Positions 41,054 through 46,461 of a stretch of DNA of 64,000 nucleotides are shown here, piece after piece (within the stretch, counting starts at the first letter, position 1; the number at the start of each line of letters is the position of its first letter). A program made the position numbers and the translations under genes. The DNA lies in assembly GCA_030424545.1 (NCBI GenBank), contig JAUHWL010000011.1, positions 1-64,000 of the forward strand, in the 5' to 3' direction. The notes under the pieces are model-generated. The model saw nothing but the letters and a program-made list of their open reading frames with translations, did not search any database and had not been told where the DNA came from. Source of the DNA: Bacteroidia bacterium. GTDB taxonomy: Bacteria; Bacteroidota; Bacteroidia; Flavobacteriales; Schleiferiaceae.

Positions 41054-42064
41054 ATGAACTATACAATACAAGAAGAAATTCAGAAGCGAATTTTAGTGCT
41101 TGATGGCGCCATGGGCACCATGATTCAGCAACATAAATTTGAAGAAGCTGATTATCGCGGTCAGCGATTTGCCGATTATGCACATCCGTTAAAAGGCAAT
41201 AATGACCTGCTCAGCCTCACGCAGCCCGAAGTGATTTTAGACATCCACCGTAAATATTTTGAAGCCGGTGCCGATATTGTAGAAACAAACACATTTAACA
41301 GCAACCGCGTGAGCATGGCCGATTACCACATGGAAGATTTGGTGCATGAACTAAATGTGGCATCGGCAAAATTGGCGCGCCAAGCGGCCGATGAATTTAC
41401 AGCGCAAAACCCCGACAAGCCTCGCTTTGTGGCGGGCAGCATTGGGCCAACAAATCGCACAGCAAGTTTAAGTCCGGATGTAGAAAACCCTGGTTTTCGA
41501 GCGGTTTCGTACCAAGATTTAATCGATAATTACAAAGAACAAACCCTAGCTCTGCTGGAAGGTGGCGTTGATATTTTATTGGTAGAAACAGTGTTTGACA
41601 CGCTGAACGCGAAAGCCGCGCTTTTTGCCATCGAAGAAGTTTTTGATGAGCTCGGGCGAAAAATTCCCATCATGGTTTCAGGTACCATAACCGATGCCAG
41701 CGGGCGCACTTTAAGTGGGCAAACCACCGAGGCTTTTTTAATTTCTGTGCAGCACGTACCGTTGCTCAGCATCGGTTTAAATTGCGCGCTGGGTGCCAGT
41801 CAGCTGCTGCCGTATTTGCAAACGCTGCACCGCAAAGCGCCATTTTTTACTTCGGCACACCCAAATGCGGGGCTACCCAATGCCTTTGGCGAATATGACG
41901 AAAGTCCAGAAAAAATGGCCGAACAAATAAAAGAATACTTGGATTTGAATTTGGTGAACATCATTGGTGGCTGCTGCGGAACAACTCCGGAACACATCAG
42001 GAAGATTGCGGATTTGGCAGCTCTTTACGAACCTAGAAAGTTGGCGGCTACCAGTATGCAGTAG
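41054..42064 (+). CDS. metH: Methionine synthase N-terminal half (homocysteine-binding domain)
   Basis: The 336-aa protein is the homocysteine methyltransferase barrel of cobalamin-dependent Met[45 protein letters not shown] and the zinc Cys ligands in LNCALGA and [11 protein letters not shown]. The rest of MetH is a separate gene beginning 120 nt later. Such a two-gene MetH is known in Bacteroidota and is not damage: both halves end cleanly at domain edges. Start lies right behind the riboswitch. Confidence 0.92.
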
Positions 42065-42184: not shown

Positions 42185-45100
42185 ATGACTTATAAAATGC
42201 GTCCCCTCAAACTCTCCGGCCTCGAGCCGCTCATCATTGACGAAACCAGCAACTTCGTGAATATTGGCGAGCGCACAAATGTGACCGGTTCGCGTAAGTT
42301 TTTGCGGTTGATAAAAGAAGAAAAATTTGAGGAAGCGTTAGATGTTGCCCGCGATCAAGTAGATGGTGGCGCGCAAATTATCGATATAAATGTAGACGAA
42401 GGCATGATTGATGGCGTAGAAACCATGGTGAAATTTCTTCACTTGGTGGCTGCCGAGCCAGATATTGCGCGCGTTCCCATCATGATAGATTCCAGTAAAT
42501 GGGAAATTATTGAGGCAGGATTGCGCTGCGTTCAGGGCAAAGCGGTGGTAAATTCCATCAGCTTAAAAGCGGGCGAAGCCGAGTTTCTACACCAAGCAAA
42601 ATTAATTATGCGTTACGGTGCTGCCGTTGTGGTTATGGCGTTTGATGAAGATGGTCAGGCCGATAATTACGAAAGACGCATCCAGATTTGTGAGCGTTCA
42701 TACAAATTATTGACAGAAAAACTTGGTTTTCCGCCAGAAGATATCATCTTCGATCCAAACATATTTCCCGTGGCCACTGGCATGGACGAACATCGCAGAA
42801 ATGCGCTCGACTTTTTTGCCGCCACCAAATGGATTAAAGAAAACTTGCCACACGCACGCGTGAGTGGTGGTGTGAGCAACGCATCGTTTAGCTTTCGCGG
42901 AAACGATAAAGTGCGCGAAGCTATGCACGCGTCTTTTCTGTACCACGCCATAAAAAACGGCATGGATATGGGCATTGTAAACCCGGCCATGCTCGAGGTT
43001 TATTCGGAAGTTGACAAAGAATTAATGCAGTATGTAGAGGATGTAATTCTTGATAGAAGAGACGATGCCACCGAACGTTTGCTTGAGTTTGCCGAAACCG
43101 TAAAAGGCGATGGCAAAAAGCAAGTAAAAGATTTAAAATGGCGCGAAGGAACCGTGCAAGAACGCATTACGCATGCACTTGTAAAAGGCATTGACGAGTT
43201 TATTATTGAAGATACCGAAGCGGCCCGATTGCTTTTTGAGAAACCATTACAAGTTATAGAAGGTCCGTTAATGGACGGCATGGGCGTAGTTGGCGATCTT
43301 TTTGGCAGCGGCCAAATGTTTTTACCGCAGGTGGTAAAAAGTGCTCGGGTGATGAAAAAGGCGGTGGCTTATTTGGAGCCTTTCTTAGAAGAAGAAAAAC
43401 GTGCTAATTTGGCTGCTAACCCCACCCCGGCCCTAGCCGCAGGGGAGGGAGACGAAGTTGAAACTTCGGATGGTCACGCCACGGTTCCTCCCCCTACGGG
43501 GGAGGTTAGGAGGGGGTCAGAGACGCATCAATTACCTCGCTACAATACAGCAGACCCTAAAGCCTACATTGCCTTGCGAGAAATTCAAATGGATCAGCGG
43601 AAGAATCCAACTGTAGCTGAATCCTTTTTGTGGAAAGCAATTCGCGGCAAGAATATAGAAGGATATAAATTTAGAAGACAACATATTATTGGGCATTATA
43701 TAGCTGATTTTGTGTGTTTGGAACCACGATTAATTGTTGAAGTTGATGGTAGAATTCACCAGCTTCCAGAAAATAAAGAACATGATGAAATAAGGACATC
43801 GCATTTAAATGATCTTGGTTTCGCTGTCATTCGATTCACAAATGAAGAAGTTTTAAATGATATTGTTTCAGTTGAAAATGAGTTGAAAAAGGCGCTCAAT
43901 AAACTAAGAGTTGACCCCACCCCGGCCCTCCCCAAAAGGGAGGGAGACGAAGCTGAAACTTCGGATGGTCACACCACGGTTCCTCCCCCTGCGGGGGAGG
44001 TTAGGAGGGGGTCAGCGGAAAAGGCTAAATCTTCTGGTGCCGGCCGCGTTCTCCTCGCCACAGTAAAAGGCGATGTGCACGACATTGGTAAAAACATTGT
44101 GGGTGTGGTTTTGGCTTGCAACAACTACGAAATTGTTGATTTAGGCGTGATGGTTCCGCCAGAAAAAATTCTGCAAACCGCCATTGACGAAAACGTAGAT
44201 GCCATTGGTTTAAGCGGATTGATTACGCCAAGTTTAGACGAAATGATTCATTTGGCGCGCGAAATGGAACGCCAAGGATTTACCATGCCACTGCTAATTG
44301 GCGGTGCAACAACAAGTTTGGCGCACACAGCCGTAAAAGTAGATACCGAATACAGCGGCCCCGTTGTGCATGTAAATGATGCCAGCCGCGCTGTAAATGT
44401 GGTGAGTAAATTGTTGCAGAAAGACGCCCGAGACGAGTACGTTTCTGAGCGAAAAGCGCAATATGCAAAAATCAGAGAAGGATACGCAAAAAACAAAAAG
44501 GCAAAGCCTACACTAAGTATTGCGGCTGCGCGCGAGAATAAATTCGCGATTGATTGGGGAAATTATACGCCACCAGTGCCCAAAAAATTGGGGGCTTTTG
44601 TTCTCGAAAATTATCCGCTCAAAAAGCTGGTACCGTTTATAGATTGGACACCATTTTTCCAAACATGGCAGTTGCACGGCAAGTTTCCGGCATTGTTAGA
44701 AGATGAAAAAATAGGTACAGAAGCCAAAAAACTTTACAAAGATGCGCAAGAAATGTTGCGCCTAATTGTGCGCGAAAATTGGCTGCAAGCCAATGGCACG
44801 TACGGACTTTTCGAAGCAAATGCCGTAAACGATGACATCGTTTTGACGAAAGAAAATGAAACATTTTTCACGCTTCGTCAGCAAGGCGATTTTAAACCCG
44901 GGATTGCCAATTATGCGTTGAGCGATTTTATCGCGCCAGCCGCCAGCGGCAAAACCGATTATGTAGGATGTTTTGCAGTAACAGCCGGTTTGGGAATTGA
45001 CAACCGCGTTAAACAGTTTGAAGCCGACAATAATGATTACAAAGCGTTGTTGCTAAAATCGCTTGCCGATAGATTGGCCGAAGCGTTTGCAGAACATTTG

Positions 45101-45463
45101 CATTTGCGCGTGCGCACTGAATTTTGGGGCTACGCGCCCGATGAAAACTTGGCCAACGAAGATTTAATAAAAGAAAATTACCAAGGCATTCGGCCCGCGC
45201 CCGGTTATCCGGCTTGCCCAGATCACCTTGAAAAACGAACCATTTTTAAACTTTTACAACCTGAAAAAGTGGGGTTGGTTTTAACAGAAAGTTTGGCGAT
45301 GTTTCCAGCTGCTGCGGTTTCAGGCTATTATTTTAGTCATCCGCAAAGCCGCTATTTTGCTGTGCGCGATGTAGACCAAGATCAGTTAGAAGATTACGCC
45401 AACAGAAAAGGAATAACCATAGAAGAAGCAGAAAAATGGCTTCGCCCAGTTTTGAAATACTAA
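42185..45463 (+). CDS. metH: Methionine synthase C-terminal half with inserted DUF559 nuclease domain
   Basis: The 1092-aa protein contains the MetH folate domain ([14 protein letters not shown] at the start), the cobalamin cap (~330-405), then a ~199-residue insert (412-610), the cobalamin-binding domain (DVHDIG at 630-635, His632 as axial ligand) and the SAM-dependent activation domain ([12 protein letters not shown] near the end). The insert is a whole DUF559 domain between two 34-codon repeats, all in frame. It lies at a flexible inter-domain linker, so the enzyme may still work. A normal protein of this kind would be ~890 aa. Regulated by the upstream riboswitch; metF follows. Confidence 0.93.
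43419..43520 (+). repeat. 102-bp hairpin-rich repeat, left copy, in metH
   Basis: It encodes [20 protein letters not shown] and continues [12 protein letters not shown]. Internal hairpins are GAAGTTGAAACTTC and CCTCCCCCTACGGGGGAGG. It is 102 bp (34 codons) with no stop in the host frame. The right copy at 43914-44015 has the same length and differs mainly in one stem. Confidence 0.9.
43521..43913 (+). other. DUF559 (PD-(D/E)XK-like endonuclease) domain inside metH
   Basis: 131 codons between the two repeats. [19 protein letters not shown] is the usual DUF559 opening, then [18 protein letters not shown] and [11 protein letters not shown] carry the D...E-x-D acidic residues of Vsr/PD-(D/E)XK-like nucleases, closing with [15 protein letters not shown]. 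An in-frame ATG exists at 43589. The domain appears intact. It is part of the host ORF, not a separate gene. Confidence 0.85.
43914..44015 (+). repeat. 102-bp hairpin-rich repeat, right copy, in metH
   Basis: Direct repeat of 43419-43520. It begins TGACCCC (43912) and ends GGGGTCA (44008-44014), an inverted pair. Contains the stems CCCTCCC/GGGAGGG, GAAGCTGAAACTTC and CCTCCCCCTGCGGGGGAGG. Start-to-start distance to the left copy is 495 bp (165 codons). Confidence 0.9.
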
Positions 45464-45507: not shown

Positions 45508-46461
45508 ATGAAGGTAATCGACATCCTAAATCAAAGCAATAAAACCATCTTTTCTTTCGAAATATTGCCCCCGTTAAAAGGACAAAATATCAACGATATT
45601 TATGCAAATATTGATCCGTTAATGGAATTTAATCCGCCATTTATTAACGTAACCTACCACCGCGAAGAAGTGGTTTATAAGCGTTTAGACGGTGGTTTGC
45701 TTCAGCCGAAAACCGTGCGCAAACGCCCGGGTACCGTAGGTATTTGTGCTGCGCTGATGAACAAATATAAAGTGGAACCGGTGCCGCATATTTTGTGTGG
45801 CGGGTTTAGCAAAGAAGATACCGAAAACGCCCTCATCGACTTGAACTTTTTGGGCATCCAAAATGTGTTGGCGCTGCGCGGAGATTCATTAAAAGGCGAG
45901 AACTTTTTTGTGCCCGAAAAAGACGGACACACCTATGCCGAAGAATTGGTGCAGCAAATTGTGGGCATGAACAAGGGCCAATATTTAGACGAAGAATTAC
46001 AGAATTCTAGCCAAACCGATTTCAGCATTGGCGTGGCGGGCTATCCGGGGAAACATTTTGAGGCACCCAGCATCAATATCGACATTAGTTATTTAAAACA
46101 AAAAGTAGATGCCGGTGCCGATTACATCATCACCCAATTGTTTTTCGACAACGATAAATATTTCAATTTTGTAGATAAATGCCGCGCTGCGGGAATCACG
46201 GTGCCCATTATTCCCGGTATCAAACCCATCGCCACCAAAAAGCAATTAAGCATTTTACCCAACCGTTTTCATGTGGATATACCTGATGAGCTTGCGCTAG
46301 AAATAATAAAGTGCAAAGACAATGCAGCCGCGCGCGAAGTAGGCGTGGCGTGGGCTACCCAACAAAGCAAAGAGCTGATAGACGCAGGTGTGCCTGTAGT
46401 ACATTTTTACAGCATGGGCAAAAGCGACAATATTTACCAAGTGGCCAAAGCATTGTTTTAG
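45508..46461 (+). CDS. metF: Methylenetetrahydrofolate reductase
   Basis: The 317-aa flavoenzyme supplies 5-methyl-THF to MetH. Blocks present are SFEILPPLKG with the catalytic Glu, PPFINVTYHREE, GICAALMNKYKVEPVPHILCGGF, VLALRGD, VDAGADYIITQLFFDN and VPIIPGIKPI. The C-terminus HFYSMGKSDNIYQVAKAL is intact. Last gene of the methionine operon. Confidence 0.95.
   Translation: MKVIDILNQSNKTIFSFEILPPLKGQNINDIYANIDPLMEFNPPFINVTYHREEVVYKRLDGGLLQPKTVRKRPGTVGICAALMNKYKVEPVPHILCGGFSKEDTENALIDLNFLGIQNVLALRGDSLKGENFFVPEKDGHTYAEELVQQIVGMNKGQYLDEELQNSSQTDFSIGVAGYPGKHFEAPSINIDISYLKQKVDAGADYIITQLFFDNDKYFNFVDKCRAAGITVPIIPGIKPIATKKQLSILPNRFHVDIPDELALEIIKCKDNAAAREVGVAWATQQSKELIDAGVPVVHFYSMGKSDNIYQVAKALF

Follow-up and report, generated by a model that had tools for sequence, protein, structure and literature searches.

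A DUF559 nuclease inserted in frame between palindromic repeats in methionine synthase: a candidate mobile element of Bacteroidota genes

The metH locus and its insert

The window considered here is the whole stretch of 64,000 nucleotides at positions 1 to 64,000 (forward strand) of contig JAUHWL010000011.1, from a Schleiferiaceae bacterium of the class Bacteroidia (assembly GCA_030424545.1). It holds a split metH gene, encoding methionine synthase, in which a DUF559 nuclease domain lies in frame between two palindromic repeats. The N-terminal half of the enzyme, a homocysteine S-methyltransferase (PF02574, E=4.2e-100), is encoded at 41054–42064 on the forward strand. The C-terminal half follows on the same strand at 42185–45463 as an open reading frame (ORF) of 1092 amino acids (aa), which scores 1211 bits against the NCBIfam model TIGR02082 (metH), above its cutoff. 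The Pfam domains of this ORF are arranged in the order Pterin_bind, B12-binding_2 (the cap), DUF559, B12-binding and Met_synt_B12. The insert sits between the cap and cobalamin domains, and the linker measured there between fixed anchors reaches 252 aa, compared with 44–52 aa in short metH linkers.

The insert, also on the forward strand, opens with the upstream repeat (43419–43520) and continues with a TADP motif (43547–43558, a position derived from the frame), which belongs to an N-terminal extension common to many core-gene inserts. The core of the DUF559 domain occupies 43592–43897 (PF04480, 115.7 bits; aa 470–571 of the ORF, E=4.3e-32) and is followed by the downstream repeat (43914–44015). 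Both repeats are 102 nt long, 92% identical and spaced by 495 bp, and the complete repeat-DUF559-repeat unit stays within the single open frame, as the preliminary description of this DNA had proposed. By eye, each repeat consists of two C-rich hairpins in inverted orientation, a doublet resembling a REPIN; in the minimum-energy fold, the downstream copy forms two separate hairpins and the upstream copy one longer single structure. The same description noted that the repeats were rich in hairpins and free of in-frame stops. The hairpins were found, but the openness is what the composition yields (1 and 2 of six frames open, with dinucleotide-shuffle means of 2.5 and 3.5), and the idea of a special stop-free design was rejected. 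Next to metH, the ORF at 45508–46461 on the forward strand is presumably metF-like, a name assigned by eye.

The methionine synthase with the insert is the only one detected in this bacterium. The fused MetH is probably its working enzyme, because the genome, 99.97% complete, gives no match to PF01717 (MetE).

The D and E-x-D residues noted earlier are present in the DUF559 domain of the window. A profile of 16 DUF559 sequences matches the PDB entries 3hrl and 3r3p (E=1.4e-6 for 3r3p), and the AlphaFold model of the domain, with a mean predicted local distance difference test score (pLDDT) of 88.6, retrieves the same two structures in Foldseek (3r3p with E=3.2e-4 and a TM-score of 0.77 by target). 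The Foldseek match to the Vsr structure 1vsr is weak (TM-score 0.41–0.42, E 0.04). Fold and profile together suggest a relationship with the EDxHD homing endonuclease I-Bth0305I and, weakly, with Vsr. The insert also matches MTES_1575 below the cutoff, and it does not qualify as an HUH transposase. When the cap, insert and cobalamin domains are modelled together with AlphaFold2 (mean pLDDT 72.6, predicted TM-score 0.47), DUF559 is modelled confidently and folds by itself, and its flanking linkers appear disordered, with pLDDT near 30.

In-frame copies and their end repeats

Such inserts recur in many genomes. Among 60 relatives, DUF559 was present in 14, several times in long ORFs, with hsdR, ileS, type ISP and type IIG restriction genes as hosts; one locus resembling a helicase with a terminal Vsr-like domain (L072) was left out of the count. 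In a wider set, 222 of 392 Bacteroidota genomes carried the domain. The best 150 listed matches, three of which belong to the genome of the window, included 49 in frames of at least 350 aa and 99 in frames below 250 aa. Forty of the 49 long-frame matches were fetched. In all 40 the domain is read in frame and is flanked on at least one side by repeat-like peptides; L236 among them is fused at the C terminus of its host, and in L227 the downstream flank was not recognisable. A separate scan, whose pattern was built from this subfamily and which gives no unbiased frequency, placed the best 80 of 502 confirmed loci in frames of 430–1645 aa without exception (L085 and L127 being cut by contig ends). 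With seven copies from the relatives and the window itself, the in-frame set reaches 128.

The hosts of these copies comprise 23 nameable gene families, among them metH, ileS, leuS, metG, recG, purL, hutU, uvrC and restriction enzymes, as well as the unnamed host of L227. Names were obtained by Pfam searches on 25 representatives and the window and extended through sequence clusters, and some of them, such as miaB and ileS, combine Pfam domains with recall. Residues E35, W39, Q55, E75, D77, G78, H81 and D90 (numbered as in the window) are identical in 128/128 inserts, and D64 in 127; by analogy with the family, the invariant E, D and H residues would be catalytic. The 127 further in-frame copies support the earlier idea of a mobile unit, a DUF559 nuclease with hairpins at its ends, whose insertion does not destroy the gene it enters, and the nuclease may be the driver of its movement. 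An in-frame ATG occurs within −99 to +15 in 63 of 126 copies, and in 18 copies such a start has a Shine–Dalgarno-like box, so that a general lack of a private start codon was not established.

One alternative to translation of the insert as part of the host protein is that ribosomes skip it or that splicing takes it out, which would leave the mature host protein free of it. Translational bypass elements exist, and the ends of the insert do form hairpins. The frame, however, is open across the insert in the 80 scan loci, which were not chosen for openness. No Hint splicing domain family of inteins was found in the MetH ORF at E 0.001 (Pfam), and no group I or group II intron ribozyme core between 43100 and 44400 (Rfam, to E 0.1), where a lone miRNA-type match stayed below the threshold. 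Removal of the insert is therefore regarded as very improbable.

The ends of individual copies are related to each other. In 126 of the 128 in-frame loci, the upstream repeat compared with the reverse complement of its own downstream repeat scores 15.08 on average, against 9.94 for the ends of other loci, a value reached in 0 of 2000 permutations; scores of at least 14 are attained by 60 of the 126 own pairs and by 11.9% of other pairs. With duplicates removed, the effect is visible among the metH linker loci (13.5 vs 10.9, n=43, 0/2000 permutations) and outside them (15.7 vs 9.8, n=80). In L236 the ends form a perfect inverted pair of 42 nt. The 32 standalone copies of DUF559 behave similarly, mostly with direct flanking repeats (38.9 vs 9.9) and also with inverted ones (17.5 vs 9.6), each with 0/5000 permutations, and a direct-repeat score of at least 18 is found in 19 of these 32 and in one of 28 control ORFs.

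Among plasmid records, DUF559 occurs in 38 of 72,556, some of them chromosome-sized. Six loci from other phyla taken from these 38 records have flanking repeats, on both sides in four and on one side in two, as judged by eye and score. One is a Sphingomonas plasmid (L340, 1153–1563), in which DUF559 and C-rich repeats lie between sufB and sufC, inside an operon. CGTC repeats as a partner of DUF559 were not seen in the six non-Bacteroidota loci, where a motif scan gave a single CGTCATT (L335). Carriage by phages was likewise rejected (DUF559 in two of 50,697 phage records, both distant), and the view of the locus as a defence system found no PADLOC match.

The GIY-YIG nuclease was considered as a parallel in-frame invader and dropped. 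The long frames among the matches listed in the 60 relatives measure about 365–500 and 580–680 aa and were taken, by length alone, as exonuclease fusions and UvrC. The exception is the HsdR protein of L242, in which a GIY-YIG domain lies in frame at aa 251–316 beside a DUF559 insert; a second nuclease type may live in a similar way.

Empty, solo and filled sites

The genome of the window contains five DUF559 genes (profile search with PF04480), and all five are flanked on each side by a similar stretch, as the preliminary description had anticipated. The similarity is strong in two of them, one with a 225-bp direct repeat and the other with the 102-bp direct repeat of the window, and weaker and shorter in the remaining three (L001, L004, L005); the control for this comparison is the separate test on the 32 standalone copies. 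A search of the genome with the window repeat pattern gave 12 places, two of them inside the element of the window. Solo repeats in coding genes, also expected, were found in frame as two doublets in hutU, one in ileS and a single hairpin in leuS, the last two host names being assigned by eye. One further match falls close to the beginning of a 525-aa ORF, and the remaining five are at the end of an ORF or outside any recognisable gene. Beside one solo repeat there is a G-rich tandem array (L012, about 1680–1800).

Among the metH loci read, the linker measures 44–52 aa in 76 rows (57 distinct) and 177–252 aa in 32 rows (19 distinct), with no intermediate length. In Flavobacterium, 110 of 121 genomes gave a metH, and in at least 12 of the 110 a match runs across or into the insert, two of these matches being partial. 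The metH of F. hercynium is filled, and that of its congeners G516 and G555, whose MetH proteins are 97–98% identical, is empty. All three states appear at the first hutU site, which is empty (30–33 aa) in all 27 of 29 relatives in which it was readable, carries a solo doublet (53 aa) in the genome of the window, and bears the full insert (174 aa) in L088. The second hutU site was empty in 19 of 19 readable relatives. In leuS, the hairpin of the window's genome stands, by eye, at the place of a full insert in five others. The earlier account had also named a finding that would count against it, namely the same site filled in distant Bacteroidota without repeats. The site is indeed filled in distant members (Flavobacterium and others), which counts in part against the account, though palindromic flanks are present there and the insert tree is unlike that of the host.

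These states bring forward a second alternative, in which the repeats came first. Palindromic repeats comparable to Rickettsia palindromic elements would have spread in genes by means of another enzyme, and DUF559 would have entered a repeat later. The in-frame solo repeats of hutU, ileS and leuS fit such a history, as do the two repeats of the window, near-identical direct copies that look as if one had been duplicated. No solo repeat, however, occurs among the 57 distinct short metH linkers, and the end repeats match within the locus for in-frame and standalone DUF559 alike. The three Y1_Tnp genes of the genome are also without the window repeat (scores 6–9, background 95% point 10), other mobilising enzymes not having been searched for. 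Taken together, this order of events is considered unlikely. Two of the Y1_Tnp genes (L342, L343) are themselves flanked by palindromes, which differ from the DUF559 repeat.

History of the insert and a candidate mechanism

With 51 metH loci, the host tree is rejected as a description of the insert data (difference in log-likelihood 223, approximately unbiased test p 1e-6), and the two trees share 12 of 48 splits; by these comparisons, the history of the insert differs from that of the host. In some pairs the synonymous divergence (dS) of the insert is far below that of the host (0.018 vs 0.231; 0.356 vs 1.065). In the pair L149/L155, synonymous differences amount to 1/63 over the insert core and to 1/43 over the next 65 codons, which include the downstream linker, before the proportion rises to 0.20–0.35; on the upstream side it is 2/23 adjoining the core and then 0.11–0.40. 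Near relatives of the domain are found in unrelated hosts (metG and ade, 78%; metG and tryptophan dioxygenase, 70%). In the DUF559 tree, a clade of 111 rows (SH-aLRT 91, not starred) unites the core-gene inserts with three standalone copies; the majority of standalone and restriction-gene copies fall outside it, and many forks are unresolved. A possible recent move within one genome (G221) is seen in the sister copies L236, at the end of a PurL-type gene, and L318, a standalone gene.

The ratio of nonsynonymous to synonymous divergence (dN/dS) is below 0.25 for the insert in pairs with usable dS, mostly 0.06–0.20, the exception being the nearly identical L149/L155 at 0.44. Judged from these ratios the inserts are under purifying selection, the host being more constrained than the insert. 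Such selection, together with the intact key residues, could also mean that DUF559 has been domesticated, giving the host protein a useful function at a site which is a tolerant linker. This third alternative can further draw on the several restriction enzymes among the hosts and on the clustering of the DUF559 tree by host site (28 changes vs 67.8 when shuffled, near-copies contributing). It is opposed by the patchy presence of the insert in Flavobacterium, by hosts that are unrelated to each other and by the incongruence of insert and host trees, and appears clearly improbable.

The best explanation, to which we give somewhat better than even credence, is a mobile element consisting of an EDxHD/Vsr-like DUF559 nuclease of homing type with C-rich palindromic ends, which would persist as an unspliced in-frame domain insertion and spread by homing and by jumps. 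A homing-type cycle is the most likely course. The nuclease, fused to its host or released from it, would cut an empty allele, and repair would copy the filled allele into the cut one at the same site. On rare occasions the element would jump to a new gene, with the palindromic repeats as its ends; the peptides encoded by the repeats may serve as flexible tethers letting the host enzyme fold, and solo repeats could be remnants or non-autonomous copies. Selection would keep only in-frame, tolerated insertions.

Several observations weigh against this mobile-element interpretation. Movement and cleavage are deduced from sequence, and the interpretation accounts neither for the frequent matching frames in new genes nor for the lost linker codons. 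The filled metH of F. hercynium is no clean insertion, as eight linker codons are lost with the gain of the insert; the left edge of the insert varies among filled metH alleles, and no target-site duplication was found. In the inverted test fewer than half of the own pairs (60/126) reach a score of 14, and a plain scan of 80 loci for direct repeats is weak, with scores of at least 15 in 5/79 (one of these five, L127, being a contig-edge artefact) compared with 5/307 control ORFs. The tree test relies on an insert of about 98 aa and may suffer from model misfit. The dS of the insert equals or exceeds that of the host in some pairs (0.93 vs 0.72), as for vertical descent. Of nine pairs, L149/L155 clearly shows a tract resembling co-conversion, which is weak or absent in the other eight. 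The proposal that insertion always takes place beside the most conserved host stretch did not hold generally (13 families; mean percentile 0.54 on the left and 0.68 on the right).

Among known systems, EDxHD homing endonucleases such as I-Bth0305I (3r3p) come closest, by profile and fold, by the invariant E-x-D...H...D residues, and by a patchy, site-linked occupancy with horizontal spread at a fixed site that has filled and empty alleles. These enzymes are described in introns, together with inteins or as free-standing genes (PMC3943268, PMC3984707), and a DUF559 gene is assigned to EDxHD (PMC9403480); compared with the enzymes described there, the DUF559 insert differs in being unspliced, in frame and bounded by palindromic ends. 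As in the REPIN-RAYT system, a nuclease gene is bordered on each side by palindromic repeats, with solo doublets elsewhere, but here the nuclease is DUF559 instead of an HUH tyrosine transposase, and the Y1_Tnp genes of the genome are without the window repeat. Rickettsia palindromic elements and CGTC repetitive extragenic palindromes likewise lie in frame in genes (PMC10969869, PMC3733652); the window repeats, which are similarly palindromic and in frame, have no CGTC tag with an 8–9 bp stem starting AT (by eye against PMC3733652) and accompany a nuclease. The likeness to the Vsr mismatch endonuclease is the weak fold similarity to 1vsr. Caulobacter VsrA, a DUF559-containing protein, has a link to DNA damage (PMC12907096); the comparison made here covers fold and DUF559 content.

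Descriptions of in-frame DUF559 elements were not found in the open-access literature searched, as far as its accessible text goes. It is conceivable, though we lean slightly against so broad a claim, that these inserts form a distinct class of bacterial mobile element, in which a translated, unspliced nuclease unit borrows the expression of its core host genes, spreads by homing and is tolerated because its palindromic ends encode flexible linkers. Such a class would be common in Bacteroidota, and standalone relatives bordered by comparable repeats would exist in Neisseria, Sphingomonas and a cyanobacterium. The usual explanation for homing elements in conserved genes is that splicing takes them out of the gene product; the nuclease here seems to manage without splicing, even in tRNA synthetases. 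The finding offers a role for DUF559 and suggests with which nuclease a class of palindromic repeats might be paired, and the inserts form a natural record of the positions at which enzymes tolerate the entry of a large domain.
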